Positions 34,197 through 63,521 of a stretch of 64,000 nucleotides of DNA are shown here, one piece after another. Source of the DNA: Roseococcus suduntuyensis (GTDB lineage: Bacteria > Pseudomonadota > Alphaproteobacteria > Acetobacterales > Acetobacteraceae). Location: the NCBI RefSeq assembly GCF_014196305.1, contig NZ_JACIDJ010000010.1:1-64000 (forward strand). The letters are read 5' to 3'. The notes below the pieces were generated by a model. The model saw nothing but the letters and a program-made list of their open reading frames with translations, ran no database searches and was not told the DNA's origin. The position numbers and the translations under genes were made by a program. The number at the start of each line of letters is the position of its first letter. Position 1 is the stretch's first letter.

Positions 34197-34245
34197 CCGT
34201 CCGATGGCCGAAGGGCGATGTCGCCCGGAGGTCTGAATCGGCCGG
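34197..34245 (+). repeat. Structured repeat element, degenerate copy
   Basis: Outer arms CCG-T-CCGAT and ATCGG-C-CGG pair with the same central mismatch as the other family members. GGCC/GGTC and GGGCGA/TCGCCC form the inner stem and TGA is left unpaired on the 3' side. Inner bases differ from other copies but pairing is kept. It lies in the gap between the substrate-binding gene and the TPP enzyme. Confidence 0.55.
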
Positions 34246-34269
34246 CCAGAACCTCCGAGGAAGCGCCGC

Positions 34270-35952
34270 ATGACCCACGACACCCCCTACACCGTCGCCG
34301 ACATGGTGGCCGAATTCCTGGCACGCGTGGGCGTCACCACCGCCTTCGGCATCGTCTCCGTCCACAACATCCCGATGCTGGACGCCATCGGCCGGCGCAA
34401 TGCCATCCGCTACGTGATGTGCCGCGGCGAGATGGGCGGCGCGCACATGGCCGATGCCTATGCGCGCGTGACGGGGCATCTGGGCGTGCTCTTCACCAGC
34501 ACGGGGCCCGGCATGGCCAACAGCATCGGTGGACTGGTGGAGGCACGCTTCGCGGGCTCGCCCGTGCTGCACATCACCGGCCAGACGCTCACGAAGTTCC
34601 TCGACCGCGACACGGGCAGCGTCCATGACGTGCCGGGCCAGACGGCCATCCTGGAGGCGGCGGGCAAGGCCGCGTATCGCGTGCGCCACGCGAACCAGGC
34701 CTTCGGCACGCTGTGGCGTGCGGCCATGGAGGCGATGACGCCGCCGCGCGGCCCCGTCTCGGTGGAAATCCCCATTGATATCCAGCGCGCCACCATCGCG
34801 CGGCCTGCGGCGCTCGACACGCTGGAACTGCCCGTGCCGCCGCCGCTGCCGCCCTCTGAGGCCGCACTCGATGAACTGGCCGACCGTCTGGCTTCGGCGA
34901 AGCGCCCCATGATCTGGCTCGGCAATGGCGCGCGCGAGGCGGGGGCGGGGGCCATGGCGCTGATCGAACTCGGCTTCGGCTGTGTGAATTCCTGGAACGG
35001 CCGCGGCATCGTGCCGGAGGATCACCCGATGACGCTGGGCGCCATGCACGGCAATGGATCGCCCCGCGTGCAGGAGTTCTATGGCACGGTGGACGCGATG
35101 CTGGTGCTGGGTTCGCGCCTGCGCGGGCATGAGACGCAGGATGGCACGCAGAAGCTGCCCGCGAACCTCATCCATGTGGATGTGGACCCCGCCGCCGATG
35201 GCCGCACCTATCCCAACACCCTCTTCGTGCAGGGCGATGCGGAGCTGGTGGCCCAGGGCCTCGCGCGGCGCCTCAAGGGCCGCCTGCACACGGACCCGGC
35301 CTTCCCCGCCGACCTGGCGGAGACGCGCCGCCGCGCGGTGGAGGAATTCCTCGCCACCCTCGGCCCCTATCACGGCTTCTGCGATCAGCTGCGCGCCGTC
35401 ATGCCGCGCGACGCGCTCTGGGTGCGCGACATCACCATGAGCAACACGACCTGGGGCAACCGCGTCTTCCCCATCTACGGCCCGCGCGATGCGGTGCACC
35501 CCGTGGGGGCCGCCATCGGGCCTGGCCTGCCGCTGGGCATTGGCGCGGCCATGGGTGCCCAAGGCCGCAAGACGGTGGCGATGGTGGGCGATGGCGGCTT
35601 CGCCATGAACATGAGCGAGCTCTGGACCGCCGTGCAGGAACGCGCGCGGCTCTGCACCATCGTGATGAACGACCGCGGCTATGGCGTGATCCGCGTGATC
35701 CAGGATGCGGTGGTGGAGGGCCGCCGCTTCGGCGATGACCTGCTGGGACCGGACCTCGCGCAACTGGCGGCGGTCGCCGGGCTGCCGCACTTCAAGGTCT
35801 CGCGCGCCGAGGCTTTCGGCGCCGTGGTGGCCCAGGCGCTGGAGGTGGACGGGCCCACCTTGGTCGAGGTGGACATGGTCGCCATCGGGCCCTTCCCGCC
35901 CTATGCGCCCTACACCACCATGGGCAAGCACGCGGAGCGTGCGCAGCGTTGA
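34270..35952 (+). CDS. Thiamine-diphosphate-dependent enzyme, acetolactate-synthase-like
   Basis: 560 aa with the three domains of the POX/AHAS family. E54 in MCRGEMGGAHMADAYAR is the cofactor-activating glutamate. The central domain starts near 190, and the C-terminal Mg-TPP motif is GDGGFAMNMSELWTAV...IVMNDRGYG. It likely decarboxylates or carboligates a 2-oxo acid. It is not the biosynthetic ilvB, as no ilvN follows. An odd HNIPMLDAI segment replaces the usual motif near residue 32. The neighbouring substrate-binding and amidase genes suggest a catabolic role. Confidence 0.87.
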   Translation: MTHDTPYTVADMVAEFLARVGVTTAFGIVSVHNIPMLDAIGRRNAIRYVMCRGEMGGAHMADAYARVTGHLGVLFTSTGPGMANSIGGLVEARFAGSPVLHITGQTLTKFLDRDTGSVHDVPGQTAILEAAGKAAYRVRHANQAFGTLWRAAMEAMTPPRGPVSVEIPIDIQRATIARPAALDTLELPVPPPLPPSEAALDELADRLASAKRPMIWLGNGAREAGAGAMALIELGFGCVNSWNGRGIVPEDHPMTLGAMHGNGSPRVQEFYGTVDAMLVLGSRLRGHETQDGTQKLPANLIHVDVDPAADGRTYPNTLFVQGDAELVAQGLARRLKGRLHTDPAFPADLAETRRRAVEEFLATLGPYHGFCDQLRAVMPRDALWVRDITMSNTTWGNRVFPIYGPRDAVHPVGAAIGPGLPLGIGAAMGAQGRKTVAMVGDGGFAMNMSELWTAVQERARLCTIVMNDRGYGVIRVIQDAVVEGRRFGDDLLGPDLAQLAAVAGLPHFKVSRAEAFGAVVAQALEVDGPTLVEVDMVAIGPFPPYAPYTTMGKHAERAQR

Positions 35953-35962
35953 ACCTGCTGGC

Positions 35963-36004
35963 GCGGCCGATTCACGCCGCGGCTGCGCCACGACGATCGG
36001 ACGC
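35963..36004 (-). repeat. Structured repeat element, one copy
   Basis: Read on the minus strand: outer stem GCG-T-CCGAT with ATCGG-C-CGC, asymmetric internal loop C opposite GTGA, inner stem GTCGTGGC/GCCGCGGC (two G-U pairs on this strand) and loop GCA. Relative to the commoner CTGAT/ATCAG copies the outer stem carries a matched double change. The first G is the last base of the TAG stop of the small gene at 36004. It fills the convergent gap after the TPP gene. Confidence 0.8.
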
Positions 36005-36303
36005 TACTCGCCGCCCTCCCTCGCCCGCTCCATCAACCGCGCGATGCCCGTGATCTTCTCCAGCCCCATATCCAGGGGCTGGCCGGTGCGCGGGTCGGGG
36101 TAGATCTTGAGGTAGGACTGTCCCGCCACCTTCTCCCATCGCCCCGAAGGCCGGCGCATCTGCAAATCCACGCCCATGGATTTCAGCAGCATCCGCACCA
36201 GCGCCTCCTTCGGCGCGTCGGGCTTGGGCAGGCAGGGATAGGCGCCGATCATCTTCCAGCCATTGGCCAGCGCCCAGTCGGTGAGTTCCTGCTTCGTCAT
36301 CAT
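36004..36303 (-). CDS. Small conserved-looking protein of unknown function
   Basis: 99 aa, not recognised. It begins with MMTKQELTDWALANGW, is amphipathic with no membrane segment, and has a central SYLKIYPDPRTGQPLDMG segment. Start is ATGATG overlapping the amidase stop, so translation is probably coupled. High-GC third positions and a tight overlap support a real gene. A helix-rich N terminus and a short beta-like C-terminal part are all that can be said. It ends in TAG at the edge of a repeat element. Confidence 0.7.
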   Translation of the reverse strand: MMTKQELTDWALANGWKMIGAYPCLPKPDAPKEALVRMLLKSMGVDLQMRRPSGRWEKVAGQSYLKIYPDPRTGQPLDMGLEKITGIARLMERAREGGE

Positions 36304-37760
36304 GCCATGGAGGCCGGGGGCACGGTGCCGGGGCGCGGGTCAATCGGCAGCATCCGGTCCAGCCCCGCCGCCGCTTCGAACAGCGCGGCCGCCTGGAGCG
36401 CCACATCCTCGCGCCGATGGGGTGCCACCACCTGCAACCCCACCGGCCGGCCATGCTGGTCGAAGCCGCAGGGCACGGCGACGGCGGGGCAGCCCGTCAT
36501 GGTGATGGCGGCGTTGAGCATGGAGCCGGCCATGTAGTTCTCGAGCTTCACACCGGCGATGGTCTCGGGGTTGCGCAGCATCACGTCGAAGGCCGGCGTG
36601 GGCGCGCCCGGCGTCACGAACACGTCGTACTTGGCGAACATCGCCACCATGCGGCGGAAGAAGGCCGCGCGCTCGCGGTCGGCCCAGGCCAGGCGGCTGG
36701 GCGTCGCGTCCAGCCCGCGCTGGGTGTTCCAGATGATGTCGGGCTTCAGCTGGTCGCGGTGGGACTGCATCTGCAACTCGCGGTCCACCACGAAGACCTG
36801 GCTGCGCAGCACCAGGAAGGCCTCGTCCAGCTCGCCGAGGTCAGGCGCGAACTCCTCGACCACGCAGCCCATCGCCTCGAAATGCTTCATGGCCTTCGCG
36901 CAGATGTCACGCACCTCGCGGTCCACCGGCAGCTTGCCGTTGAAGTCGGTGGTGAAGGCGATGCGGCGCGGGCGGTTCTGCTCGGCCGTCGCCACGGCGG
37001 CGGCGTAGGGCAGGGCGGGCGCGTCATAGGTCAACGGGTCATGCGCGCACCAGCCCGCCATGGTGTCGAGGAACAGCGCGAGGTCCGGGATGTTCCGCGC
37101 CATCGGCCCCTGCACCGACATGGGCGAGAAGGTGTTGTTCACCGTGCCGCGCGTGATGCGCCCCGGCGAGGGCCGCAGCCCCGCCACCGAGCAATAGGTG
37201 CCGGGCCGGCGCGTGCTGCCGCCATGGTCGGTGCCCTGCGCCAGCCACACCTCGCCGGTCGCGAGCGAGACGGCGCCACCCCCCGTGCTGCCCCCGCAGG
37301 TGAGTGACGTGTTCCAGGGGTTGCGCGTGCGGCCGAACACCTCGTTGAAGGTGGACCCGCCCGCGCCGAATTCCGGCGTGTTGGACTTGGCGATGACGAT
37401 GCCGCCCAGCGCCTCGATGCGCTCCACGATGGGGTGCGAACGCTCCGGCACATGGTCCTTGAAGATGGGCGAGCCATAGGTGGTCCTGACACCCGCCACA
37501 TCGGTCAGGTCCTTGATGGAGACGGGCAGGCCGCCCAGCCACCCCGCCTGGCCCTCGCGTTCCCGCCCCTCACCGCGCATCAGCCGCTTCGCGTGGTCGC
37601 GCGCGCGATCGAGGCAGAGGGTGGGCAGGGCATTCACCGCGGGCTCGACCTCCGCGATGCGCGACGCCGCCGCTTCCACGAGTTCGAGGGGCGAGACCTC
37701 GCCGCGCGCGAGCGCCGCGACGGCCTGGGTGGCGGAAAGACGGATCAGATCATGCGACAT
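36300..37760 (-). CDS. Amidase (amidase-signature family)
   Basis: 486 aa. The Ser-cisSer-Lys triad is intact: K83 (SIKDLTD), S158 (GGSTGGGA) and the nucleophile S182 (GTDHGGSTRRPG). A Thr replaces the second Ser of the usual GGSSGG. The enzyme hydrolyses a carboxamide to acid and ammonia. Start at 37760; the next plus-strand gene, a Bug receptor, begins 103 bases away divergently. Related loci pair amidases with Bug receptors for amide nutrients, so the receptor may take up its substrate (inference). Confidence 0.92.
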   Translation of the reverse strand: MSHDLIRLSATQAVAALARGEVSPLELVEAAASRIAEVEPAVNALPTLCLDRARDHAKRLMRGEGREREGQAGWLGGLPVSIKDLTDVAGVRTTYGSPIFKDHVPERSHPIVERIEALGGIVIAKSNTPEFGAGGSTFNEVFGRTRNPWNTSLTCGGSTGGGAVSLATGEVWLAQGTDHGGSTRRPGTYCSVAGLRPSPGRITRGTVNNTFSPMSVQGPMARNIPDLALFLDTMAGWCAHDPLTYDAPALPYAAAVATAEQNRPRRIAFTTDFNGKLPVDREVRDICAKAMKHFEAMGCVVEEFAPDLGELDEAFLVLRSQVFVVDRELQMQSHRDQLKPDIIWNTQRGLDATPSRLAWADRERAAFFRRMVAMFAKYDVFVTPGAPTPAFDVMLRNPETIAGVKLENYMAGSMLNAAITMTGCPAVAVPCGFDQHGRPVGLQVVAPHRREDVALQAAALFEAAAGLDRMLPIDPRPGTVPPASMA

Positions 37761-37862
37761 GGTGCGAGAGTGGCACCAGCGCCCGCACCCCGGCAACCAT
37801 GCGCTTGCGCCATTCCCCCCGCCCGCGTTAGCCATGGCCGCACAAACACTGGGAGGAACCAA

Positions 37863-38840
37863 ATGTTCTCACGTCGCATGCTTTTCGCGTCGGCGCCGGC
37901 GCTCGCGGCACCCGCGCTGCTGTCCGGCACTGCCAGCGCGCAGAACTTCCCCACGCGCCCCATCATGATGGTGAACCCCTATCCGCCCGGCGGCGCCACG
38001 GAATTCGGCGCGCGCCTCATCGCGCAGCGCATAGAGCAGGAACTCGGCCAGAGCGTCGTGATCGACGCGCGCGCGGGTGCGGGCACGGCCATCGGCAATT
38101 CCTTCGTGGCCGGGCAGCGGCCCGATGGCTACACGCTGCTGATGGGGACCACCTCCCTCGCCGTGCTGCCAGCCTTGCAGCCCACCTCCGTCCCGCGTGA
38201 TCCGCGCACGGCCTTCACCCCCATTGGCCCGGCCACCATCTCGCCCTTCGTGCTGCACGTGCATCCGGACTTCCCGGCGCGCACGGTGCAGGAGGTGATC
38301 GACTACGCGAAGGCCAATCCGGGCCGGGTGAGCTGGGGCAGCTCGGGCATTGGCGCCATCAACCACATGACGCTGGAACTCTTCCGCGCGCGCACGGGCA
38401 TTGACGTGGTGCACGTGCCCTATCGTGGCGGCGCGCCCGCGCTGGTGGACATCGCGGCGAACCGCATCCAGTGCATGTTCGCGGCCGCGCAAGAGGCCTC
38501 CAGTTCCATCGCGGCCGGGCGCACGCGCGGCATCGCGGTCACGTCCACCGAGCGCATGGCCTCGCTGCCCGACCTGCCGCCCATCGCGGAGACGGTGCCG
38601 GGCTTCAACTCCGTGTTCTGGCAGGGCGTCTTCGCGCCGGCCGGCCTCTCGCAGGAGATCGCCGCCCGGCTGGAACGCGCCGTCCGCACCGCCGCCGAGA
38701 ATGCCGAGGTGAAGGAGCGCCTGGCCGGCGCCGGCATCGCCGCCTGGCCTGGCGATGCGGCCCTGCTGCGCGACACGCTGGCCCAGGACACGGAGACCTG
38801 GGGCAACATCATCCGCACCCAGAACATCACGGTGGGCTAG
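37863..38840 (+). CDS. Tripartite tricarboxylate transporter receptor (Bug/TctC family)
   Basis: 325 aa. The leader SRRMLFASAPALAAPALLSG ends with SAQ near residue 27. FPTRPIMMVNPYPPGGATEFGAR, DARAGAGTAIGNSFVAGQRPDG and HVPYRGGAPALVDI are the family blocks. A GGAGG ribosome site sits at 37852-37856. It is divergent from the amidase and has no TctA/TctB partner nearby. The TAG stop at 38838-38840 contributes its G to the first pair of the repeat array that follows. Confidence 0.92.
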   Translation: MFSRRMLFASAPALAAPALLSGTASAQNFPTRPIMMVNPYPPGGATEFGARLIAQRIEQELGQSVVIDARAGAGTAIGNSFVAGQRPDGYTLLMGTTSLAVLPALQPTSVPRDPRTAFTPIGPATISPFVLHVHPDFPARTVQEVIDYAKANPGRVSWGSSGIGAINHMTLELFRARTGIDVVHVPYRGGAPALVDIAANRIQCMFAAAQEASSSIAAGRTRGIAVTSTERMASLPDLPPIAETVPGFNSVFWQGVFAPAGLSQEIAARLERAVRTAAENAEVKERLAGAGIAAWPGDAALLRDTLAQDTETWGNIIRTQNITVG

Positions 38841-39049
38841 CGTCTGATCGGCTTCGGTGGATCACCGAAGCCGTGAATCAGCCGCGGGCGACAGCTCGTC
38901 TGATCGGCTTCGGTGGAACACCGAGGCCGTGAATCAGCCGCGGGTAAGCGTCTGATCGGCTTCGGTGGATCACCGAGGCCGTGAATCAGCCGCGGGCGAC
39001 AGCTCGTCTGATCGGCTTCGGTGGGTCACCGAGGCCGTGAATCAGCCGT
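38840..39049 (+). repeat. Structured repeat element, four tandem copies
   Basis: Copies span about 38840-38885, 38897-38941, 38948-38993 and 39005-39049 (periods 56, 52, 56). Each has CTGAT/ATCAG outer pairs, the C/GTGA internal loop, and a 10-bp GGCTTCGGTG inner stem with a 3-nt loop. Copies 2-4 carry one G-U pair (CACCGAGGCC). Loops vary (GAT, GAA, GAT, GGT) while stems stay paired. The fourth copy lies inside the 3' end of the convergent esterase gene and supplies its last codons. Confidence 0.88.
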
Positions 39050-40063
39050 GGGCGACAGCCCCCAGAAGTCGCAGATGCGGCGGGCGGCGGGGGTGCCCGC
39101 CGCCAGCACCCAGCGCGCGGCACGGCCTTCTCCCTCGCTGATGGGAAAGCCGTGCGCCATCTCCTCCAGCGTCCACAACTCCACCAGAGCGGTGGCGCCG
39201 CGTGACCACTGGCGCAACCGCGCGCCAGGGGCGGGCTCGGTGTCTTGCGAGGGTTCCTCCACAAGCCCGTGCAGCGCGCCCCATTGCGTGGCCAGCAGCG
39301 CCGCGTTGTCCGGATGTACCGTCCGGTCACGCCCGCCCTGCCAGATGGACAGGCGCGGCCAGCGCCCCGCGCCGCGGGCCGGGTTGAAGGCGCGCACGCT
39401 GGCGGCCAGGCCCGCGCGGGTGGTGAAGCGGTTGGCGTGGCGCATGCGCAGCAGCGCGCCGCCGGGCGTTACGGCAGAACCCACCGGCATCCCCGCCACC
39501 ACCGCGCCCGCCGCGAAGACCGCCGGATAGGCGGCCAGCAGCGCCGCCGCCATCGCGCCCCCGGCCGAGAGCCCCACGACGAAGACGCGCCGCTTGTCGG
39601 TGCCGAGGTGCCGCATGGCCCAGCGCAGCCCCTGGCGGATGGACATGGCCTCGCCCTGGCCGCGCGCCACATCCTGCGGGCGGAACCAGTTGAAGCAGCG
39701 GTGCCGGTTGTTCTCGCGGACCTGCTCGGGCAGCAGCAGGGGCACGCCCAGCGCCTCTGACATCGCGATCCAGCCGGCATCGGCTGCGAAGCTTGCCGCA
39801 TCCTGCCCGCAGCCATGCAGCACCACGATCAGCGGCGCGCCGCGGGCGGGCGCGCGGCGCGGCAGGTGCATGAGCATGCGTAGTCCGCCCGGATTGCTGC
39901 CGAAGCCCGTGATGGCGGATGTGCGTCCCGGCTTGGGAGTGGCCGGCGGGGTGGGCGCCCAGGCGGCCTGCATCAGCCCCATGGCGGCCCCCATGGTGGC
40001 ACGGTTCATCCGCCGCAGCGCCGCGGCCGCCCCGGGCGGCCGGCGGAAGCGGATCAGCCGCAT
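39026..40063 (-). CDS. PHB-depolymerase-family esterase (alpha/beta hydrolase)
   Basis: 345 aa. The lipase box GLSAGGA puts the nucleophile at S166. An Asp in GGRDRTVHPDN and a His in MAHGFP complete the triad. VLHGCGQDAASFAADAGW, near 81-99, is the oxyanion block of the LpqC/poly(3-hydroxybutyrate) depolymerase family. A MNRATMGAAM start 19 residues later is equally possible. No clear signal peptide, so an intracellular polyester or feruloyl-type esterase is possible. Its final residues and stop are encoded by a repeat element, so the C terminus has been rewritten. Confidence 0.83.
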   Translation of the reverse strand: MRLIRFRRPPGAAAALRRMNRATMGAAMGLMQAAWAPTPPATPKPGRTSAITGFGSNPGGLRMLMHLPRRAPARGAPLIVVLHGCGQDAASFAADAGWIAMSEALGVPLLLPEQVRENNRHRCFNWFRPQDVARGQGEAMSIRQGLRWAMRHLGTDKRRVFVVGLSAGGAMAAALLAAYPAVFAAGAVVAGMPVGSAVTPGGALLRMRHANRFTTRAGLAASVRAFNPARGAGRWPRLSIWQGGRDRTVHPDNAALLATQWGALHGLVEEPSQDTEPAPGARLRQWSRGATALVELWTLEEMAHGFPISEGEGRAARWVLAAGTPAARRICDFWGLSPTADSRPR

Positions 40064-40133
40064 GGGGGTCGCACGGGGGGTATGGGGGGCATCGGAGCAG
40101 CAACGTGCGCGGGCCCCGCGCGGTTGCCGCGGA

Positions 40134-41135
40134 TCAGCCCTGCAGACCGTCCCACCAGGGGCAGGCGCCGGGCATGCGGGTGTGGTTGCCGTCCAGCACC
40201 TGCACGGGCGCGCGTTCGCCGCGGGAAGCGGCCGCCATCCGCATGCGGCGGCCCGCCGCCACCGCCTCCTCGCCCGCCCAGATGCGGTCATGGCCCCAGA
40301 GGCTCGGGCCGCTGTCCATACACTCCGCCTGCCAGGTCTCAGGCTCGATGTGCCGGCCGCCCCAGCCATATTCCACCAGGAAGCCGCCGGGGGTGCGGGC
40401 GTAGAAGCTGGTCATCCAGTCATTGGTGTGGCGGCCGAGGGTGGTGGCGACCCGCCCTTCCTCGGCCTGGGCCAGGTCATAGCCCTGGCCGACGTCATCC
40501 AGGCTGAGGCATTCCATCATCAGGTGGTGCATCCCCGCGCGCCCGGTCTCGATCAGCGCCAGCGAGTGGTGGCGGCCATTCACATGCAGGAAATAGCCGC
40601 GGAAGGGCTGCTCCACCCAGTCGGAGAGGCCGAAGCCCAGCACGTCGCGGTAGAAGGGCAGCACGTCGTCCACGCGCGGCACCGTCAGCACCGCATGCCC
40701 CATGCCCAGCGGCCCGGTGCGGAAGCCCGAGATGGCCCGGCCGGGAGTGAAGGCGGCGCTGGCCACCTCCGGCCCGTGGAAGAATTCCAGGCGGTTGCCC
40801 AGCGGGTCGGCGGCCAGGATGAGCGCCGCCACGCGCCGCTGGTCGGCCAGGGCCTGGCTGCCACGCGCGACCGCCACGCCCGCGCCCTCCAGCCGCGCGG
40901 CCAGGGCGTCGAGGGCCGCCGCGTCCGCCAGTTCCCAGCCGAAGGCGCCCAGCCCGTCATGGGTGTCGCCGCTGACGAGGATGCGCTGCCGCCGGTCATC
41001 CATGCGGAAGGCCAGTTCGGATTGCGTCTTTTCCGCCAGCATCAGCCCCAGCATGCGGGGCCCGAACCCCGCCCAGTCGTCGAGGTTGCTGGCGCGGAGT
41101 TCGAGGTAGCCGAGAGCCTGGATCGGGGGGGCCAT
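40134..41135 (-). CDS. Extradiol ring-cleavage dioxygenase (VOC superfamily, BphC-like)
   Basis: 333 aa with two glyoxalase/VOC modules. The C-terminal module has the Fe(II) ligands expected of type I extradiol enzymes: His in GMGHAVLTVPRVDD, His in HHLMMECLSLDDVG and Glu in FLVEYGWGG. These enzymes split a catechol or substituted catechol next to the diol. A GGAG ribosome site precedes the ATG at 41135. It is divergent from a Bug receptor that leads a fumarylacetoacetase operon, suggesting one aromatic or phenylpropanoid pathway. Confidence 0.88.
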   Translation of the reverse strand: MAPPIQALGYLELRASNLDDWAGFGPRMLGLMLAEKTQSELAFRMDDRRQRILVSGDTHDGLGAFGWELADAAALDALAARLEGAGVAVARGSQALADQRRVAALILAADPLGNRLEFFHGPEVASAAFTPGRAISGFRTGPLGMGHAVLTVPRVDDVLPFYRDVLGFGLSDWVEQPFRGYFLHVNGRHHSLALIETGRAGMHHLMMECLSLDDVGQGYDLAQAEEGRVATTLGRHTNDWMTSFYARTPGGFLVEYGWGGRHIEPETWQAECMDSGPSLWGHDRIWAGEEAVAAGRRMRMAAASRGERAPVQVLDGNHTRMPGACPWWDGLQG

Positions 41136-41211
41136 GGCGCGCTCCTGTTCTTTGCGCGCATACTGAACCGAACGGCGCCACAAGCCGAGAGGGTGGGGGA
41201 GAGAGAACGCC

Positions 41212-42171: not shown

Positions 42172-42190
42172 CCTTGTTGAAGGAGACCGC

Positions 42191-43477: not shown

Positions 43478-43498
43478 ACCAACACAAGAGGAAACGCC

Positions 43499-44287: not shown

Positions 44288-44292
44288 GCGCC

Positions 44293-45242: not shown

Positions 45243-45347
45243 GGCGCGTGGTCCACGCCTCCGGGCCTTCGCCCTGCGGCGATCACGCGCCTGCGCTGGG
45301 CGTGTGATTCACGCCTCCGGGCCTTCGGCCTGCGGCGATCACGCGCC
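45243..45347 (-). repeat. Structured repeat element, two copies in reverse orientation
   Basis: Copies are 45299-45347 and 45243-45291. On the minus strand each begins GGCG-C-GTGAT and closes with ATCAC-A-CGCC (first copy) or ACCAC-G-CGCC (second copy). The internal loop is C opposite GTGA/GTGG and the inner stem GCC/GGC plus GGCC/GGCC has a GAA loop. The outer bases differ from the CTGAT copies yet pair, a compensatory pattern. The first G is the G of the permease TAG stop. The copies fill the convergent gap between receptor and permease. Confidence 0.82.
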
Positions 45348-50902: not shown

Positions 50903-51257
50903 CCGTCTCTCCTGCCCGTGCCTGTCGGGTGCGCGGCGGTGTTTTCGCACGGCGCAGCCATCCCAGACGCAACTCGATGGTTGCCGTGGCGCCAGCGTCA
51001 GTCTCCCGGGCCGGATCACACCACGCCGCGGCGCGCGCCGCAATCATGGCGATGGCGCGAGGCTTGGGGCTAGCGTCTGATCGCCTTTGGCGGAATCGCC
51101 AAAGGCGTGAATCAGCCGCTCGGCGAGGCCGGAAACGGCGTCTGATCGCCTTTGGCGGAATCGCCAAGGGCGTGAATCAGCCGCTCGGCCAGGCCGCAAG
51201 CGTGGTCACCGAAAGGTGATCTCGCTGTAGGCTGCCGCGCCCTGTCCGGAGAAGCCC
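50903..51257. other. Divergent intergenic region with repeats, 355 bp
   Basis: This gap separates the PotD-like gene (minus) from the amidohydrolase gene (plus) and must carry both promoters. It contains two copies of the structured repeat at 51073-51119 and 51138-51184. In the remaining sequence, about 50903-51070 and 51185-51257, no gene, operator or convincing -35/-10 pair was recognised. Confidence 0.6.
51073..51184 (+). repeat. Structured repeat element, two copies
   Basis: Copies are 51073-51119 and 51138-51184. Outer stem GCG-T-CTGAT/ATCAG-C-CGC, internal loop C/GTGA, inner stem GCCTTTGGCG/CGCCAAAGGC, loop GAAT. Copy 2 has CGCCAAGGGC, a single G-U replacement. A CTAG at 51070-51073 precedes copy 1, as at 38837-38840. 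Each copy is followed by CGCTCGGC, which recurs in part at 63520. No gene ends at this TAG. Confidence 0.85.
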
Positions 51258-54320: not shown

Positions 54321-54333
54321 AAGGCCGCTTGCG

Positions 54334-55650: not shown

Positions 55651-55657
55651 ACCGCGC

Positions 55658-55689: not shown

Positions 55690-55694
55690 TTCCC

Positions 55695-55913
55695 GTGCCC
55701 GCCAAGTCCCAGCAGCAGCAAAAGGCCGCCGGCGCCGCACTCGCCGCCAGGCGTGGCGACATGCCCAAATCACGCCTCAAGGGCGCCTCGAAATCCATGG
55801 CCGAGAGCATGGACGAGGCCGAGCTTCGCAAGATGGCCCATGCCAGGCGTTCCGAACTGCCCAGGCGCGACCACAAGGGGCGCGACCACGAGGGGTGTGA
55901 CCACGAGGATTGA
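55695..55913 (+). CDS. Small DUF3008-family protein
   Basis: 72 aa, basic N terminus MPAKSQQQQKAAGAAL, then RLKGASKSMAESMDEAELRKMA, the DUF3008 core. An unusual C-terminal tail holds three His-Asp/Glu-rich units (RDHKGRDHEGCDHED) that could bind a metal. GTG start behind GAGGAGG. The function of DUF3008 proteins is unknown; they are often found near stress genes. It precedes another small stress-type gene. Confidence 0.8.
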   Translation: MPAKSQQQQKAAGAALAARRGDMPKSRLKGASKSMAESMDEAELRKMAHARRSELPRRDHKGRDHEGCDHED

Positions 55914-55972
55914 GCGCAACGCAGCCGGCGCCCCCGCGTTTCTGCGGCTGGAATGACTGCAAGGAGACAGCG

Positions 55973-56194
55973 ATGTCCGGTGCCACCGCCCTGAAGGAAA
56001 AGCGCCTCGATGCCGAGGCCCATGCGCTGTGGGTCGCCGCCGGTTCCCCCGCCGGCGGGCCGGAAGCCTTCCGCGAGGAGGCCCTGCGCCAGATTTCCGA
56101 GGCCGAGACGGCCGTGGACGAGGCCAGCGCCGAAAGCTTCCCCGCCAGCGACCCCCCGGCCCATACCGGCATTACTGGTCCGGAACGCGCCTGA
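55973..56194 (+). CDS. Small DUF2934-like protein
   Basis: 73 aa. LDAEAHALWVAAGSPAGGPEAFREEAL resembles the DUF2934 helix-turn-helix-sized module, and the C terminus has the SAESFPASDPPAH motif often seen in such proteins. The ATG at 55973 follows AAGGAGA; the longer frame from 55910 adds residues without family similarity. Highly acidic. Function unknown. Confidence 0.72.
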   Translation: MSGATALKEKRLDAEAHALWVAAGSPAGGPEAFREEALRQISEAETAVDEASAESFPASDPPAHTGITGPERA

Positions 56195-56291
56195 ACCGCC
56201 GCGCGAGGTTGTCCCGCAACCCTCGCTGCCTGTAGAACCCCAGCGTCAGGCCCGCCGCATCGCGGCCGGCCATGCCGGGATGGGGTAAGCT

Positions 56292-56987
56292 GTGCGTAGG
56301 AGACGGGGCAGCAGGGGCCAGCAGAACTGGTGGCCCCTCGTGAAATGGCTGACTGTGGCGGGTATCTTCGTCGCGATCGGCTATGCGGCGCACCATGCCG
56401 GCACCCAGCTCGCCCGCCTTGAAGTGGAGCGGCTGGAGGTGAACCTCCAGCGCGCCCTCGCCACCCAGCGCGACCTCGAACAGCGCAACCGTGACCTCCA
56501 GGCCGAGCGCGACACCGCCCGCACGGCGCTCGCCGCGCTGCGCCAACGCTATGACCGCGAGGTGCCCCAGGGCGAGATGGCCACGCTGTTCGCGCGGCTG
56601 CGCGAACGGCTGGACGCCGGGCTCACGCCCGCGCGCATGGCCGACGCCATCGCCCGTGCCGAACCCGCCACCCGCTGCGACGGGCCCGTGGTGTCGCGCC
56701 GCTTTCGCATCGGCATTGGTCCGCGCGGCGCGGAGGATGACGGCACCAGCTTCGCCGAGGGCATGATCACCGTGCGCGCTGTCGCCCCCGCCACCGCCTC
56801 GGATCTGAACGCCGCCACTGTCGTCACCTTCGCCGGGCTGGGGGTGGAGGGCGGCAGCGTCAGCATGACCGGCCTGCCCGCCGAAGCCAGCCTCATGCTC
56901 GGCAACACCGAGATGCGGGTGGTGGTGGGGCCGAGCGGCGTGCCTGGCTTCGCCGCCGCCAGCCTGACCACCTGCCGGCCGCGCTGA
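56292..56987 (+). CDS. Predicted membrane-anchored coiled-coil protein
   Basis: 231 aa, unknown family, GTG start. An Arg-rich N terminus (RRRRGSRGQQ) precedes one transmembrane helix at about 18-36, then a coiled coil to about 85 (LEVERLEVNLQRALATQRDLEQRNRDLQAE). A beta-rich domain containing ATRCDGPVVSRRFRIGIG and a late Cys follows. The topology predicts a short cytoplasmic tail and a periplasmic coiled coil. The Cys pair could form a disulfide. No operon partner is evident. Confidence 0.7.
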   Translation: MRRRRGSRGQQNWWPLVKWLTVAGIFVAIGYAAHHAGTQLARLEVERLEVNLQRALATQRDLEQRNRDLQAERDTARTALAALRQRYDREVPQGEMATLFARLRERLDAGLTPARMADAIARAEPATRCDGPVVSRRFRIGIGPRGAEDDGTSFAEGMITVRAVAPATASDLNAATVVTFAGLGVEGGSVSMTGLPAEASLMLGNTEMRVVVGPSGVPGFAAASLTTCRPR

Positions 56988-57042
56988 GCCGCTACCCGCG
57001 CCCGGCATTGCGGCGGGGGGAGGGGTTGGCTATCTCCAAGGG

Positions 57043-57516
57043 ATGCCCGTCCCAGAGATGCATGCCATCCAGATCGCGCCCGCCGACGTGCTGCTTGGCT
57101 TCGCAGGTGGCAGCAAGCGCGCCGTGCTGCAATCCCTCGCCGCCGAGGCCGCCCGCCGCCTGAACCTGCCCGAGCGCGAGGTGCTGGATGCCTTGCAGGC
57201 GCGCGAGGCGCTGGGCTCCACCGCGCTGGGCCGGGGCGTCGCCCTGCCCCATGCGCGGATGGAGGGCGAAATCCCCCCCACCATGCTCTTCGCCCGCCTC
57301 GCCCGCCCCGTGGACTATGAGGCGCGGGACGAGGAGCCGGTGGACCTTGTCATCCTCGTCCTCTGGCCGGCGGCCGAGCCGGAGGGCTTCCTGCCCTCGC
57401 TGGCCGAGACCTGCCGCGCGCTGCGCGAACCCCAGACGCTGCGCCGCCTGCGCGCCGCCGCCACGCCGGAGGAGGTCGCTTCCCTGCTCGCCCCCAACCC
57501 GGGCAGGGATGGCTGA
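57043..57516 (+). CDS. ptsN: PTS EIIA-Ntr-like protein (PtsN)
   Basis: 157 aa fructose/mannitol-type EIIA domain. The phosphorylatable histidine is H70 in GVALPHARM. AREALGSTALGRG and the hydrophobic VILVLWPA strand support the fold. In proteobacteria PtsN adjusts K+ transport and nitrogen or envelope stress by its phosphorylation state. Here it is six bases before an Mrp antiporter operon, so it may regulate the antiporter directly. It could start at the Met six residues later. Confidence 0.87.
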   Translation: MPVPEMHAIQIAPADVLLGFAGGSKRAVLQSLAAEAARRLNLPEREVLDALQAREALGSTALGRGVALPHARMEGEIPPTMLFARLARPVDYEARDEEPVDLVILVLWPAAEPEGFLPSLAETCRALREPQTLRRLRAAATPEEVASLLAPNPGRDG

Positions 57517-57522
57517 GGGAGG

Positions 57523-60441
57523 GTGTCGGACAGCCTCCTCCTCCTCAGCCTGGTCGCGCTGCCCTTCCTGGGCGCCCTGGCGGCTTCGCTTCTCGCCACC
57601 CATGCCCGCAATGCGGCCGCCTACCTGGCGGGGGGGGTGGCCCTGGTCGGCCTCGCGCTGGTCTGGACGGCGTATCCCACCATTTCCAGCGGCGGCGTGC
57701 TGCGGGCGGAATTCGCCTGGGTGCCGCAGCTGGGCCTCAACTTCGTGCTCAGGATGGACGGGCTCGCCTGGCTGTTTGCCGGGATGGTCACGGGCATCGG
57801 CGCGCTGGTCGTGGTCTATGCGCGCTACTACATGTCCTCGGACGACCCGGTGCCGCGCTTCTTCGCCTTCCTGCTGGCCTTCATGGGGGCGATGTGCGGG
57901 CTGGTGCTGTCCGGCAACCTGATCCAGCTCGCCTTCTTCTGGGAGCTGACCTCCCTCTTCTCCTTCCTGCTGATCGGCTATTGGCACCACACCCAGGCGG
58001 CGCGGGACGGGGCGCGCATCGCGCTGACGGTGACGGCCACGGGCGGCTTCTGCCTCTTCGCGGGCCTGCTGCTGATCGGGCACATCGTCGGCAGCCATGA
58101 CCTCGACGTGGTGCTGGCCTCGGGCGATGCCATCCGCGAGCACCCGCTCTATCTGCCCGCGCTTGTGCTGGTGCTGCTGGGGGCGCTGACCAAGAGCGCG
58201 CAATTCCCCTTCCACTTCTGGCTGCCGCACGCGATGGCGGCGCCCACCCCCGTCTCGGCCTACCTGCATTCGGCGACGCTGGTGAAGGTGGGGCTGTTCC
58301 TCATGGTGCGGCTCTGGCCCGTCATGGCCGGCACGGACGCCTGGTTCTGGATCGTGGGCACGGCGGGGCTCATCACCCTGCTCGTCGGCGCCTACATCGC
58401 CATCTTCCAGCATGACCTGAAGGGGCTGCTGGCCTATTCCACCATCAGCCATCTGGGGCTGATCACGCTGCTGCTCGGGCTGAACAGCCAGCTCGGGCTC
58501 GTGGCGGCCATCTTCCACATCCTGAACCACGCCACCTTCAAGGCCTCGCTCTTCATGGCGGCGGGCATCATCGACCATGAATCCGGCACGCGCGACATCC
58601 GCCGCCTGTCGGGGCTGAACCGTACCATGCCCTTCACCGGGCGGCTTGCCCTGGTGGCGGCCGCGGCCATGGCCGGCGTGCCGCTGCTGAACGGCTTCAT
58701 CTCGAAGGAGATGTTCTTCGAGGAGGCGCTCTCGGCCGGCGGGCTGCTCGTGCTGCCGCTGGCGGCCATGCTCGCCTCGGCCTTCAGCGTCACCTACTCG
58801 CTGCGCTTCATCCACGGCACCTTCTTCGGCCCCGACCCCGAGGGCCTGCCGCGCACGCCGCACGAACCCCCTGCCTGGATGCGCTTCCCGGTGGAAATCC
58901 TGGTGCTGGGCTGCATCTTCGTGGGCGTGCTGCCGGCGGCGACGGTGGGGCCCTTCCTTGACCTCGCCGCGCGTTCGGTGCTGGGCGAGGCGACGCCGAA
59001 CTACAGCCTCGCCGTCTGGCACGGCGTGAACCTGCCGCTGGTGATGAGCATGATCGCGCTCGGCGGCGGCGTGCTGCTCTACATGGCCTTGCAGAAGCAC
59101 CTTCGCAGCGGCATCGAGGGCCCGCCGCTGATCCGGCGTCTGGAGGGGCGGCGCATCTTCGAACGCGCGCTGGTCTTCCTCTCCTGGCGCCTCGCGCGGC
59201 GGATGGAGGGGCTGCTCGGCACGCGGCGGCTGCAGCAGCAGTTGCGCCTGGTGCTGGTGCTGGCGCTCGCCGCGGGCGGATTCGCCGCCTGGCACCGGGG
59301 CGTCGGCCCTGGAAATCTGGTGCCGCAGGGGGTGGACCCGGTCATCGCCCTCGTCTGGCTGGTGGGGGCCGCCTGCGCCCTGGGTGCCGCCTGGCAGGCC
59401 AAGTTCCACCGCTTCGCCGCCGTCATGCTGCTGGGGGGTGCGGGGCTTGTGGTCTGCATCACCTTCGTGTGGTTCTCGGCCCCCGACCTCGCGCTGACCC
59501 AGCTTCTGGTGGAGGTGGTGACGACCGTGCTGCTGGTGCTGGGCCTGCGCTGGCTGCCCAAGCGGCAGGACCGGCCGGGGGCCACGGGCGTGGAGGTCGT
59601 TACCGTCAGCCGCCGCCTGCGGGACCTCGCCATCGCCATCACGGCGGGCTTGGGCATGGCGGCCCTCGCCTTCGCGGTGATGACGCGCACCCCGCCCGAC
59701 CTGCTGGCCCAGCATTTCCTGGCCCGCGCCTACACCGAGGGCGGCGGGACGAATGTGGTGAACGTCATCCTCGTGGATTTCCGCGCCTTCGACACGCTGG
59801 GCGAGATCTTCGTGCTCGGCGCCGTGGCGCTTACGGTCTTCGCCCTGCTGCGCCGCTTCCGCCCCGCCTCCGACAGCCTGGAGGTGCCCGAGCAGCAGCG
59901 CGACCAATCCGCCTGGGACGAAGCCCGCCCCGACCGGCGCGAGGGCGACACGGTGGCGGACTGGCTGCTGGTGCCCTCGGTGCTGACGCGGCTGCTGTTC
60001 CCGGTCATCTGCATCCTGGCCGTGCACCTGCTCCTGCGCGGACATGACCAGCCGGGCGGCGGCTTCGCGGCGGGGCTTGTCGCCTCCATCGCCATCATCC
60101 TGCAATACATGATCGGCGGCGCGGCCTGGACCGAGGAGCGGCTGCGCGTGCTGCCGCTGCGCTGGATGGGGGCGGGGCTGCTGCTGGCCGGCGGCGTGGG
60201 GCTGGCCTCGCTGTTCTTCGGCATGCCCTTCCTGACCACCTATTTCGCCTATGCCGAGCTGCCCTGGATTGGCCGGGTGCCGATGGCGAGCGCGCTGATC
60301 TTCGACATCGGCGTCTTCGCCCTGGTGGTGGGGGCCACGGTGCTCATGCTCATCGCGCTGGCGCACCAGTCCGTCCGCGGCCACCGCGCGGAGCGCCGGG
60401 CCGAAACGGCGCCCCGCGCCCTGGTGCCGGGAGAGGATTGA
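57523..60441 (+). CDS. mrpAB: Mrp Na+(K+)/H+ antiporter subunit A fused to B
   Basis: 972 aa, many membrane helices, GTG start. Residues 1-~780 are MrpA/MnhA: a NuoL-like core with [25 protein letters not shown] and the later [38 protein letters not shown] block. The last ~170 residues are MrpB/MnhB-like ([19 protein letters not shown]). Fusion of A and B is known in PhaAB-type antiporters of rhizobia. Together with C-G it exchanges cytoplasmic Na+ or K+ for protons. Confidence 0.93.
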
Positions 60442-60785
60442 TGGAGCTGGTCGTCGCCATCGGCATCGGGGTGCTGACCGGCTCGGGCGTGTGGCTGCTG
60501 CTGCGGCCGCGCACCTTCCAGGTCATCATGGGGCTGTCGCTGCTGTCCTATGCGGTGAACCTCTTCATCTTCTCCACGGGTGGGCTGCGCACCGGCGCGG
60601 CCCCGGTGCTGGAACCGGGCGGCGTGGGTGACCTGGCCACCCATGCCGACCCGCTGCCCCAGGCGCTGGTGCTGACGGCCATCGTCATCAGCTTCGCCAC
60701 CACGGCGCTGTTCCTGGTGGTGCTGCTGGCCGCGCGCGGCCTGACGGGCACCGACCATGTGGACGGGCGGGAGCACGACCGATGA
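60441..60785 (+). CDS. mrpC: Mrp antiporter subunit C
   Basis: 114 aa, NuoK-like, three helices. LLLRPRTFQVIMGLSLLSYAVNLFIF and QALVLTAIVISFATTAL are diagnostic. Its ATG overlaps the AB stop (TGATG); a TTG three bases earlier is ignored. It sits in the membrane between A/B and D. Confidence 0.93.
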   Translation: MELVVAIGIGVLTGSGVWLLLRPRTFQVIMGLSLLSYAVNLFIFSTGGLRTGAAPVLEPGGVGDLATHADPLPQALVLTAIVISFATTALFLVVLLAARGLTGTDHVDGREHDR

Positions 60786-62359
60786 CGCATCTCGTCATCG
60801 CGCCCATCATCATCCCGCTGCTGGCCGGCGCGCTGATGATGCTGCCGGGCGAGCGCTGGCGCACCCTGCGGACGGGGCTGGGCCTGGCCGCCACGGCCGC
60901 GCTGGTGGTGGTGGCGGGGCTGCTGCTGCTGCGCGCCGATGCCGCGGGCGCGGCCGAGGTGCAGCTCTATCGCCTCGGCAACTGGCCTTCCAGCTTCGGC
61001 ATCGTGCTGGTGCTGGACCGGCTTTCGGCTCTGATGCTGGTGCTGGCTTCCGTGCTGGGGCTGGCCGCCCATGTCTTCGCGCTGGCCCGCTGGGACCGGG
61101 CGGGGGCGCATTTCCACCCGCTGTTCCAGTTCCAGCTCATGGGGCTGAACGGCGCCTTCCTGACGGGCGACCTGTTCAACCTCTTCGTCTTCTTCGAGGT
61201 GATGCTGGCGGCTTCCTACGGGCTTGCGCTGCACGGCTCGGGCACGGCGCGGGTGCGGGCGGGGCTGCACTACATCGCGATCAACCTCGCCGCCTCGCTG
61301 GTCTTCCTGGTGGGCGTCAGCGTCATCTATGGCGTGGCGGGCACGCTCAACATGGCCGACCTCGCGGCCCGCATGCACGACATCGCGGCCGAGGACCGCG
61401 CCCTGCTGGAGACCGGCTGCGCCATCCTGGGGGTCGCCTTCCTCATCAAGGCCGCCATGTGGCCGGTGGGGTTCTGGCTGCCCGGCACCTATGGCGCGGC
61501 CAGCGCGCCGGCGGCGGCCATCCTGTCCCTGCTGAGCAAGGTGGGCATCTACGCGGTGCTGCGGCTGTGGCTGCTGCTGTTCGGGGACGGGGCCGGGGCG
61601 TCGGCGGGCTTCGGCGGCATGTGGCTGATGCTGGGCGGGCTCGCCACCATCGCCTTCGGCTCGCTCGCCGTGCTGGCCACGCAGAACATGGCGCGGCTGG
61701 CGGGCGCCTGCGTCATCGTCTCCTCCGGCACCTTGCTGGCGGCGCTCGGCGCGGGGCAGGTGGCGGTGACGGGCGGCGCGCTGTTCTACATGACGAGTTC
61801 CGTGCTCGCCATCGGCGCGCTCTTCCTGCTGATCGAACTGATCGAGCGCGGGCGCGAAGTGGGTGCGGACGTGCTGGCCGTGACGCGCGAGGCCTTCGGC
61901 GAGGGCGCGGAGGAGGAATACCTCGACGATGACGAGGAGATCGGCGTCGCCATCCCCGCCATCATGGCCCTGCTGGGGCTGGGCTTCATGGCCTGTGCGC
62001 TGCTGCTGGCGGGGCTGCCGCCGCTCTCGGGCTTCCTCGCCAAGTTCGCCATCCTGGCGCCCTTGATCGGCACCGGCGATGACGGCCTGCCCGCCACCAC
62101 CTGGGCGGTGCTGGCCGCGCTGATCCTCTCGGGCCTCGCCTGCCTCATCGCCATGACGCGGGTGGGGATGGACGCCTTCTGGGCCGCGCCGGGCCCGCCG
62201 CCGCGCGTCGCCATGGTCGAGATCCTGCCCGTGGCGGGGCTGCTCGCGCTGTGCCTCGGCCTCACCCTCATGGCGGGGCCGGTGATGCGCTACATGCACG
62301 ACACGGCGGCGGGGCTGCACGCCCCGGCCGGCTATGTCAGCGGCGTGATGCGTCCATGA
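60782..62359 (+). CDS. mrpD: Mrp antiporter subunit D
   Basis: 525 aa, NuoM/NuoN-like proton-channel subunit with about 14 helices. Typical blocks are LTGDLFNLFVFFEVMLAASYGL, FLIKAAMWPVGFWLPGTYGAASAPAAAIL and LLAGLPPLSGFLAKFAILAPL. The start overlaps the C stop by ATGA. It is a main ion-translocating subunit together with A. Confidence 0.94.
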   Translation: MTHLVIAPIIIPLLAGALMMLPGERWRTLRTGLGLAATAALVVVAGLLLLRADAAGAAEVQLYRLGNWPSSFGIVLVLDRLSALMLVLASVLGLAAHVFALARWDRAGAHFHPLFQFQLMGLNGAFLTGDLFNLFVFFEVMLAASYGLALHGSGTARVRAGLHYIAINLAASLVFLVGVSVIYGVAGTLNMADLAARMHDIAAEDRALLETGCAILGVAFLIKAAMWPVGFWLPGTYGAASAPAAAILSLLSKVGIYAVLRLWLLLFGDGAGASAGFGGMWLMLGGLATIAFGSLAVLATQNMARLAGACVIVSSGTLLAALGAGQVAVTGGALFYMTSSVLAIGALFLLIELIERGREVGADVLAVTREAFGEGAEEEYLDDDEEIGVAIPAIMALLGLGFMACALLLAGLPPLSGFLAKFAILAPLIGTGDDGLPATTWAVLAALILSGLACLIAMTRVGMDAFWAAPGPPPRVAMVEILPVAGLLALCLGLTLMAGPVMRYMHDTAAGLHAPAGYVSGVMRP

Positions 62360-62844
62360 GGCGCGTGCTGCCCTTCCCCTGGGTCTCGGCGGCGCTGCTG
62401 CTGCTGTGGCTGCTGTTGCAGGGCAGCCTCGGGCCCGGCTCGCTGCTGCTGGGCGGCGCGCTGGCGCTGGTGGGCGGCTGGCTGCTGGCCGTGCTGGATC
62501 CGCCGCGCACCCGGCTGCGCCGGCCCCTGGCCGCGCTGCGCCTCGCCTGGGTGGTGCTGGTGGAGGTGTTCCGTTCCAACAACGCGGTCGCGCGCCTCAT
62601 CCTGGCGCCCACCACGCGCGGGCGAAGCTCGGGCTTCGTGCGCATCCCGCTCGACATGCGAAACCCGGCGGGGTTGGCGGCACTGGCCTGCATCCTGACC
62701 GCCACGCCGGGCACCGTCTGGGCCGAGTATGATTCCGCGCGCGGCATCATGCTGCTGCACGTCCTCGATCTCATCGACGAGGCGGAATGGGTGCGGATCA
62801 TCAAGGACCGCTACGAGGCGCGGCTGATGGAGATCTTCGAATGA
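62356..62844 (+). CDS. mrpE: Mrp antiporter subunit E
   Basis: 162 aa, two N-terminal helices and a cytoplasmic domain with LAALACILTATPGTVWAEYD and LHVLDLIDEAEWVRIIKDRYE, characteristic of MnhE/MrpE. The ATG overlaps the D stop. It is needed for assembly of the seven-subunit complex. Confidence 0.92.
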   Translation: MRRVLPFPWVSAALLLLWLLLQGSLGPGSLLLGGALALVGGWLLAVLDPPRTRLRRPLAALRLAWVVLVEVFRSNNAVARLILAPTTRGRSSGFVRIPLDMRNPAGLAALACILTATPGTVWAEYDSARGIMLLHVLDLIDEAEWVRIIKDRYEARLMEIFE

Positions 62845-63122
62845 CGGCGATGATCCTCTCCTGGTCGGTCTTTCTCGCGCAGCTGATGCTGGCGCTCGGC
62901 ATGGGCTGCACCATCTGGCGCGTGGCGCGCGGGCCCCGCGCGCAGGACCGCGTGCTGGCGCTGGACACCTTCTACGTGCTGGCGGCCATGCTGCTGCTGG
63001 TCTTCGGCATCCGCACCGGCAGCGTCGTGTATTTCGAGGCCGCGCTGGTCATCTCGCTGCTGGGCTTCGTGGCCACGGCCGCGCTGTCCAAGTTCCTCAT
63101 GCGCGGCGAGGTGATCGAATGA
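62841..63122 (+). CDS. mrpF: Mrp antiporter subunit F
   Basis: 93 aa, three helices. RVARGPRAQDRVLALDTFYVLAAMLLL is the conserved MrpF loop. The start overlaps the E stop and its stop overlaps the G start, by four bases each. Confidence 0.92.
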   Translation: MTAMILSWSVFLAQLMLALGMGCTIWRVARGPRAQDRVLALDTFYVLAAMLLLVFGIRTGSVVYFEAALVISLLGFVATAALSKFLMRGEVIE

Positions 63123-63475
63123 CCCATGCCGAGAACCTGCCGGGCTGGGCCGCCATCCTGGTCTCGCTGCTGCTGCTTCTGGGGGCCGGGCTTGGGCTGG
63201 TGGGCGCCATCGGCCTGCTCAGGCTGCGCAATTTCTATGAGCGCGTCCATGCGCCGACGCTCGGCACCACGCTCGGCATCGGCAGCATCCTGCTGGCCTC
63301 CATGCTGTTCTTCACCGTGCTCCAGGCGCGGCCCGTGCTGCATGAGGTGCTGATCGGCGTCTTCATGGTGCTGACCACGCCGGTGACGCTGATGCTGCTG
63401 GCCCGCGCCGCCCTCTACCGCGACCGGCGCGAGGGCAGTGCCGAGGTTCCGCGCAGCACGACGGGGGAGGGGTAG
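63119..63475 (+). CDS. mrpG: Mrp antiporter subunit G
   Basis: 118 aa, three helices. GAIGLLRLRNFYERVHAPTLGTTLGIGSILLAS is the MrpG signature. Last gene of the antiporter operon. Its TAG stop at 63473-63475 supplies the first paired base of a structured repeat. A charged C-terminal tail (RDRREGSAEVPRSTTGEG) follows the last helix. Confidence 0.93.
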   Translation: MTHAENLPGWAAILVSLLLLLGAGLGLVGAIGLLRLRNFYERVHAPTLGTTLGIGSILLASMLFFTVLQARPVLHEVLIGVFMVLTTPVTLMLLARAALYRDRREGSAEVPRSTTGEG

Positions 63476-63521
63476 AGGGCGATCCGCGACGGCGGCATCG
63501 CCGAAGCGGTGAATCGCCCTC
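63475..63521 (+). repeat. Structured repeat element, one copy
   Basis: Outer stem of nine pairs (GAGGGCGAT/ATCGCCCTC), internal loop C opposite GTGA, inner stem CGC/GCG and GGCG/CGCC separated by a GAC/GAA mismatch, loop GCAT. The outer stem sequence differs from the others but pairing and the C/GTGA loop are kept. It sits in the convergent gap between mrpG and a Bug receptor. Confidence 0.75.

Follow-up and report, generated by a model that had tools for sequence, protein, structure and literature searches.

What are the short hairpins that recur between the genes of Roseococcus suduntuyensis, and how did they come to sit where they do? The question is raised by a stretch of 64,000 nt from this member of the Acetobacteraceae (assembly GCF_014196305.1, contig NZ_JACIDJ010000010.1, positions 1 to 64,000 of the forward strand; the whole stretch is called the window below), in which a first-pass annotation made from the letters alone had described 11 copies of one hairpin plan at six loci. 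We call this element hairpin A. Our covariance model of it (R1) reports the same 11 places at E<=0.01 when opposite-strand echoes are left out. R1 was trained on 34 sequences, and 10 of the 11 window copies (all except the one at 45244) were among them, so independent support has to come from the rest of the genome. That genome (4.14 Mb, handle G000; the window lies on its contig C10) and two relatives, G003 and G020, are the basis for most of what follows. Hairpin A is probably a non-autonomous mobile hairpin element resembling the repetitive extragenic palindromic (REP) sequences of other bacteria: it is abundant, its stem covaries, it lies outside genes and often directly on a TAG, and its copies come and go between close relatives.

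A bulged stem with a fixed core

Hairpin A is about 46 bases long and forms a single stem with a pyrimidine-pyrimidine mismatch near the foot, a 3-nt TGA bulge and the core GAT...TGAATC. A typical copy, read on the strand that carries GTGAATC, runs through a GCG foot, one side of a T.C mismatch, CTGAT, an inner stem that opens with C and closes with G, the unpaired TGA, ATCAG, the mismatched C and CGC. The earlier description had an asymmetric internal loop with C on one side and GTGA on the other. That C, however, is base-paired to the G that opens GTGA (a C-G pair in 123 of 126 distinct copies), which leaves TGA as a bulge. The claim that GTGAATC is almost fixed likewise needs qualification: 9 of the 11 window copies have it, but the copy at 34197 reads CTGAATC and the one at 45244 has no TGAATC. 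By itself the heptamer is not rare in the window, with 9 matches where 4.7 are expected.

In RNA folding, 10 of the 11 window copies formed the stem with its 3-nt bulge (45244 shows a larger internal loop); energies across all 11 run from -20.7 to -33.4 kcal/mol. Seven copies had z below -4, with no shuffled sequence folding equally well, and the weaker ones were 34197 (z -2.6), 45244 (-3.1), 45300 (-2.9) and 35962 (-1.4, with 16 of 200 shuffles equally good). Folded as DNA, six copies were examined: the bulged stem was the lowest-energy fold in five, 45300 being the exception, and the folds of 34197 and 35962 were no better than those of many shuffles.

Covariation was tested on 34 copies and then on 150 copies from the genome, 126 of them distinct. 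The 150 are the best of 294 matches in the retrieved loci, many of those matches being opposite-strand echoes, and they were aligned with the model. Thirteen of the 19 pairs in the structure change on both sides. Among the distinct copies, 94.0% of paired cells can pair against 84.7% in shuffles, double changes number 244 cells against 72, and the covariation score is 0.278 against 0.111 for shuffled alignments and at most 0.115 when the partners are slid. Choosing the best copies and aligning them with the model biases these counts towards the structure, but in our view that bias alone does not account for so large an excess over slid and shuffled partners. The first-pass annotation had said that the stems change yet stay paired, and had taken this as the mark of selection on a structure or of repeated mobilisation; the continued pairing is confirmed, and selection on a structure is supported.

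Other positions hardly vary. GAT/ATC is present in 143 of the 150 copies and TGAATC in 141. The foot mismatch is T.C in 110, C.T in 22, C.C in 13, T.T in 2, C.A in 2 and G.C in 1; because two pyrimidines face each other in 147 copies while the neighbouring pairs covary, the mismatch is kept unpaired. At four loci (L050, L101, L119 and L114), hairpins with other feet (CGGGAT/ATCCCG; AGAGCA/TGCTCT) adjoin members of the family; judged by eye, they may be subfamilies.

Abundance in the genome, the genus and the family

The genome contains the pattern GTCTGATC-N18..30-GTGAATCAG 64 times as an exact match and the reversed pattern not once. With 150 candidates scored, R1 finds at least 152 matches there (E no higher than 1.7e-5 for the best 150). 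A contiguous, unselected 1.2 Mb of contig C1 holds 132 distinct copies in 77 clusters at E<=1e-5, which extrapolates to about 450 copies in the genome.

All 21 genomes of the genus have an R1 match, with counts that run from 1 to at least about 150; the lowest are a single match in a 74%-complete genome and four matches in a 97%-complete one. Across the Acetobacteraceae, a match at E<=0.001 turns up in 98 of 200 genomes, and in 57 of 102 genera (30 candidates scored per genome, under stricter filters). In a sample of the class (21 candidates scored) the figure is 6 of 289 genomes, our own included, and the other five have one to three matches each with best E values from 9.7e-8 to 6.5e-4. A strict pattern search of named genomes gave at least 101 stretches with a match; the titles among the matches listed are Acetobacteraceae, Roseomonas, Roseococcus, Rhodovarius, uncultured Rhodospirillales or Alphaproteobacteria, and metagenome-assembled genomes labelled 'Asaia bogorensis'. 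Copies are also carried by three IMG/VR viral contigs (L316, L317 and L318), one of which has five; these contigs may be host fragments or prophage flanks.

Gene ends and the TAG at the edge

None of the 77 clusters in the unselected 1.2 Mb lies within a called gene (genes were called with a codon-based caller made for this analysis, not a published one). Counting gaps of at least 20 nt in the same stretch, there are 36 clusters for 82 convergent gaps, 35 for 383 unidirectional gaps and 6 for 145 divergent gaps. In unidirectional gaps the element is sense in 19 cases and antisense in 16, so the strand that carries the bulge varies with respect to transcription. In the set of best copies, which form 90 clusters, 10 clusters were left unclassified where a called gene overlaps and one more has no called gene on one side.

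The 5' edge of clusters is often marked by TAG. In 51 of the 90 best-copy clusters and 29 of the 77 unselected ones, a TAG runs into the first base of the first copy, while internal copies have it in only 4 of 60 and 5 of 55, respectively; per position, the window's background rate of TAG is 0.27%. The base before it is free (in the 51 clusters, CTAG 23, GTAG 17, TTAG 6 and ATAG 5). This TAG is frequently a stop codon: genes that end within 12 nt of an element use TAG in 50 of 81 cases, against 49 of 294 for other genes. In the window the edge TAG is a stop codon at 38838-38840, 63473-63475 and 36006-36004 (minus strand), and the one at 51071-51073 lies between divergent genes.

Gain and loss between close relatives

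Over 19 kb, G000 is 93.8% identical to G003 and 92.2% to G020, and G003 and G020 are 94.5% identical to each other. At the 51073 locus both relatives are without a segment of 154 bases that lies between TAGs, and the empty site reads CTAGG. Both also lack the copies at 34197 and 35962 at the orthologous sites, and the array at 38840 has four copies in G000, three in G003 and one in G020. For 38 sites of the genome both flanks were found in the G003 stretches compared: 17 are occupied there and 21 have no model hit, a ratio that is not unbiased, since the stretches were picked partly around G003 copies and partly by synteny. Among the 21, length differences near one unit (54, 54, 54, 53, 57, 59 and 60) occur, and the site at 45244 has a degenerate relative in G003. 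Judged by eye, 22 sites show presence in one genome and absence in the other (21 in G000 only, one in G003 only), with readable junctions at 13; a G003 copy that is absent from G000 sits after ATAG.

One insertion can be given a direction. The flanks of locus L077 match in all 21 genomes of the genus, the junction is readable in 20, and the element is present in G000 only. The empty sites of the other 19 genomes have TA in 17 cases and TAG in 12, and two genomes (G004 and G007) have a longer, unrelated spacer. The insert is about 59 bp, lies directly 3' of CTA and has made no target duplication. As the element is found in one of 20 readable genomes, this copy, at any rate, was gained recently and 3' of TA. 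Together with the differences between close relatives, this supports the earlier suggestion of repeated mobilisation. A TA target duplication is a trait of IS630 elements. Duplication of this kind was hinted at by the window locus 51073 and by L104, and was ruled out by L077 and L118, where there is none.

Several observations weigh against the reading as a mobile element. Only L077 is polarised by outgroups, and G003 and G020 resemble each other (94.5%) more than either resembles G000. Of the 13 readable empty sites, six have TAG, three have just TA, and four have TGA in place of TAG. At one of the four TGA sites (L122) G003 keeps the remnant GGCGTCTGA, which marks some of the absences as losses. 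The entire gap differs between G000 and G003 at L075 and L078. Locus L054 and its G003 counterpart L137 share the site and the same rare outer stem (CGGAT/ATCCG) and have unlike, paired inner stems, through either an inner-stem exchange or independent insertion; at L041 the element of the G003 counterpart (L128) is inverted and has a different inner stem. Simple insertion explains neither of these two sites. The TAG rule is not strict either, since TAG is missing from the first copy in 48 of the 77 unselected clusters, and a mobilising enzyme was not found in the searches made.

Direct arrays and a second hairpin

Thirty-four of the 90 clusters hold two to four of the best copies, all in one orientation and spaced 51-65 nt apart (108 in one case). 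Copies are 96% identical within an array, against 77% between the first copies of different arrays. Near-identical copies without a TAG at the internal ones suggest that arrays grow locally by duplication and not by repeated insertion. Inverted pairs were not found: none of the 34 multi-copy clusters (copies less than 400 nt apart) is of mixed orientation.

A second short hairpin, hairpin B (GCGTGATC...GATCACGC), occurs at 9 places in the genome at up to 3 mismatches. It lies about 15 nt past an A copy at C6:11680, C10:51200 and C2:512836, and likewise in G003 at C1:3593446 and C1:3932493; further places in G000 include C2:447784 and C8:114841. Hairpin B was considered as a constant right end of the element and rejected: a perfect stem of at least 8 bp lies within 75 nt downstream in 15 of 90 clusters and upstream in 9 of 90 (9 of 450 for random 75-mers), and some of the 15 downstream stems are further A copies or lie inside genes.

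Table 1. Hairpin copies and adjoining features in the 64-kb window
Feature	Position	Strand	Evidence
Hairpin A copy, outer stem CCGAT/ATCGG, bulge TGA	34197..34245	+	R1 50.2 bits
Hairpin A copy, directly after the TAG stop (36006-36004) of the minus-strand gene called at 36004-36303	35962..36004	-	R1 48.1 bits
TAG stop of the gene called at 37878-38840 (+), overlapping the first base of the array	38838..38840	+	Gene call, sequence
Hairpin A, array copy 1	38840..38885	+	R1 71.7 bits
Hairpin A, array copy 2	38896..38941	+	R1 64.9 bits
Hairpin A, array copy 3	38948..38993	+	R1 69.7 bits
Hairpin A, array copy 4	39004..39049	+	R1 63.6 bits
Hairpin A copy, degenerate, without TGAATC	45244..45290	-	R1 41.2 bits
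Hairpin A copy, outer stem GTGAT/ATCAC	45300..45346	-	R1 56.5 bits
Hairpin A copy 1 of an insertion	51073..51119	+	R1 74.7 bits
Hairpin A copy 2 of the same insertion as 51073	51138..51184	+	R1 72.7 bits
Hairpin B, second short hairpin, 15 nt past the last A copy	51200..51225	+	
Segment with two A hairpins and hairpin B, TAG on both sides, absent in G003 and G020	51074..51227	+	
Hairpin A copy, outer stem GAGGGCGAT/ATCGCCCTC, directly after the TAG stop (63473-63475) of the gene called at 63119-63475 (+)	63475..63521	+	R1 56.1 bits

Rfam has no match above its gathering score in the window. A perfect 21-bp inverted repeat with a 3-nt loop lies at 21744-21788 between two plus-strand called genes; by eye it is unlike hairpin A.

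The search for a mobilising enzyme

The IS200/IS605 transposase domain PF01797 has no match in the genome of R. suduntuyensis and is present in one of the 21 genomes of the genus. That genome (G006) has three matches, of which L033 and L034 look IS200/IS605-like by eye, L034 adjoining a TnpB-like open reading frame. Across the family the domain is not associated with the hairpin (13 of 98 genomes with hairpin A against 11 of 102 without, p=0.67; the two scans were taken as covering the same 200 genomes, whose handles agree). PF01797 was also considered as a test for REP-associated tyrosine transposases (RAYTs) and rejected: E. coli RayT (L319:4638-5135) has no Pfam-A hit at E<=0.01, while NF047646 gives it 179 bits. 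As PF01797 misses E. coli RayT, the results with this domain are silent on RAYTs.

RAYTs were therefore sought with a profile that combines E. coli RayT with five tblastn relatives, two of them short (six RAYT-like proteins in all, from three phyla), in whose control every left-out member scored between 147 and 249 bits. At E<=1 the profile had no match in the 45% of the genome (about 1.85 Mb) that it was run on, a portion that takes in 1.8 kb on either side of the 90 best-copy clusters (less at two contig ends), and none in 1.23 Mb of relatives. A tblastn search of 1.2 Mb of the genome with E. coli RayT gave only chance-level matches (best E 0.76). There are 14 HxH...Y candidates near the repeats; four were scanned, and no transposase was among those four. 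The comparison with REP/RAYT systems that the first-pass annotation had drawn is so far without support from this 45% of the genome, and a RAYT may lie in the other 55%.

Comparison with described repeat families

In E. coli REPs, a mismatch bulge and the GTAG are needed by TnpAREP (PMC8266576), and in GTAG REPs the TAG at the 5' foot is often a stop codon, with gene 3' ends preferred (PMC3733652). Hairpin A is similar in being short, extragenic and present in high copy number, in having a 5' TAG that is often a stop codon, in its preference for gene 3' ends, and in a conserved stem mismatch such as that of E. coli REPs (PMC8266576). It differs in that GTAG is found at only 17 of 90 first copies, the base before TAG being free, and in its 3-nt TGA bulge, its fixed GAT/TGAATC core, its direct tandem arrays and the lack of a RAYT found nearby. 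REPIN and BIME structures contain REPs in inverted orientation, whereas hairpin A arrays are direct. Since any base may precede the TAG and inverted pairs are missing, hairpin A is set apart from the GTAG REPs.

CGTC REPs have stems of 8-9 bp, loops of 4-5 nt, mostly CCA tails and head-to-head dimers (PMC3733652). Hairpin A shares with them its occurrence as an alphaproteobacterial hairpin, a CGTC that opens its main subfamilies and the lack of a known dedicated transposase. In contrast, it has 19 pairs in two parts, head-to-tail arrays and a 3' foot CCGC; the last C of CGTC is paired, and at least 32 of 150 copies have GCGCC instead of GCGTC. Di Nocera et al. (2013) describe CGTC REPs as missing in Acetobacteraceae (PMC3733652), which agrees with the remark in the first-pass annotation that no such family was known in this group. 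The different stem, loop, tail and arrangement, with this reported absence, set hairpin A apart from the CGTC REPs as well. Going by these descriptions, hairpin A is a new family of REP-like kind and a member of neither described REP class.

Elements of the IS200/IS605 family insert 3' of a short target, beside a hairpin and without target duplication. Hairpin A likewise is a hairpin beside a short target, inserted 3' of it without duplication; an element derived from IS200/IS605 differs in that the genome has no PF01797 match, although a transposase that has been lost or that acts from elsewhere is possible. Literature searches on the repeat and on Acetobacteraceae, Roseomonas and Roseococcus gave, among the titles listed, none on such a repeat family. 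Lichenicola cladoniae is presumably also a member of the Acetobacteraceae. RepRanger lists 1,369 palindromic REPs in this species, and the available portion of that paper defines no family there (PMC12306157).

Competing explanations

The placement of the copies could also be read as function. The hairpins might be RNA 3' ends (bidirectional terminators or mRNA stabilisers) selected at gene ends, with their spread secondary, and the crowding into convergent gaps, the excess of TAG stops in adjoining genes and the stable RNA folds are all in keeping with this. An intrinsic terminator, however, requires a T run, and no copy of the 150 has TTTT within 12 nt downstream (AAAA just upstream, a T run on the other strand, is found in 4). 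Nor is there a preference for either strand (19 sense, 16 antisense). It also has to contend with the 21 of 38 sites without a model hit in a 94%-identical relative, genus counts from 1 or 4 to at least about 150, and the 102 of 200 family genomes without a match at E<=0.001. A pure RNA function fits the placement and does not fit the presence and absence of copies, the missing strand preference or the missing T runs, and we think it quite improbable. Even less probable is that hairpin A serves CcrM methylation in the manner of the Caulobacter CIR repeats, with the fixed GAATC as its GANTC site. GANTC is indeed present in 145 of 150 copies and about four times rarer in the window than expected (49 against 189 under a first-order model), with 12 of the 49 inside the hairpins; the CIR repeats of Caulobacter and Brucella are, like hairpin A, intergenic, GANTC-bearing inverted repeats (PMC2229807). 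However, the N is A in 143 of the 145 copies and a T precedes the site in 143, a conservation beyond what methylation needs, and CIR elements are by description about 110 bp long with two long inverted repeats.

A third explanation overlaps with a mobile REP-like element and differs in the enzyme: hairpin A would be a true REP, and the RAYT that moves it would have its gene at some other place in the genome or have been lost not long ago. The TAG at the foot, the mismatch and bulge, the extragenic location and the high copy number are features that matter for E. coli TnpAREP (PMC8266576). Against it stand the six-protein profile, which found nothing in 45% of the genome, the flanks of 90 clusters included, the chance-level tblastn matches in 1.2 Mb, and arrays that are direct, with inverted pairs in none of 34 multi-copy clusters; we regard it as unlikely, if less so than the two functions above.

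A possible route of spread and its meaning

If hairpin A is a mobile REP-like element, a protein that reads the folded single strand, recognising the pyrimidine mismatch at the foot, the TGA bulge and the GAT/TGAATC core, may be what moves it. Only copies that still fold would then be moved, which would give rise to the covariation. TAG is never an in-frame codon inside a gene, so an element that targets it would often land, without harm, just behind a stop codon. Once there, arrays would gain and lose copies through recombination or slippage between the direct repeats. A bolder version, which we put forward only tentatively and think rather doubtful, is that these recently active REP-like hairpins do without any RAYT or IS200/IS605 transposase: a so far undescribed single-strand-reading enzyme of the Acetobacteraceae would insert them 3' of TA(G), with stop codons as a safe harbour, and inner stems would be swapped as cassettes while foot and bulge are kept.

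How REP-type repeats without a transposase gene spread, those of the CGTC class above all, is treated as an open question in the literature (PMC3733652). To this question hairpin A brings one recent clean insertion, many sites of presence and absence, and strong covariation. As a single genus spans a handful to at least about 150 copies, the enzyme can be sought by genome comparison. The family also suggests a simple reason why REPs lie after stop codons: the preferred target may itself include the stop codon TAG.

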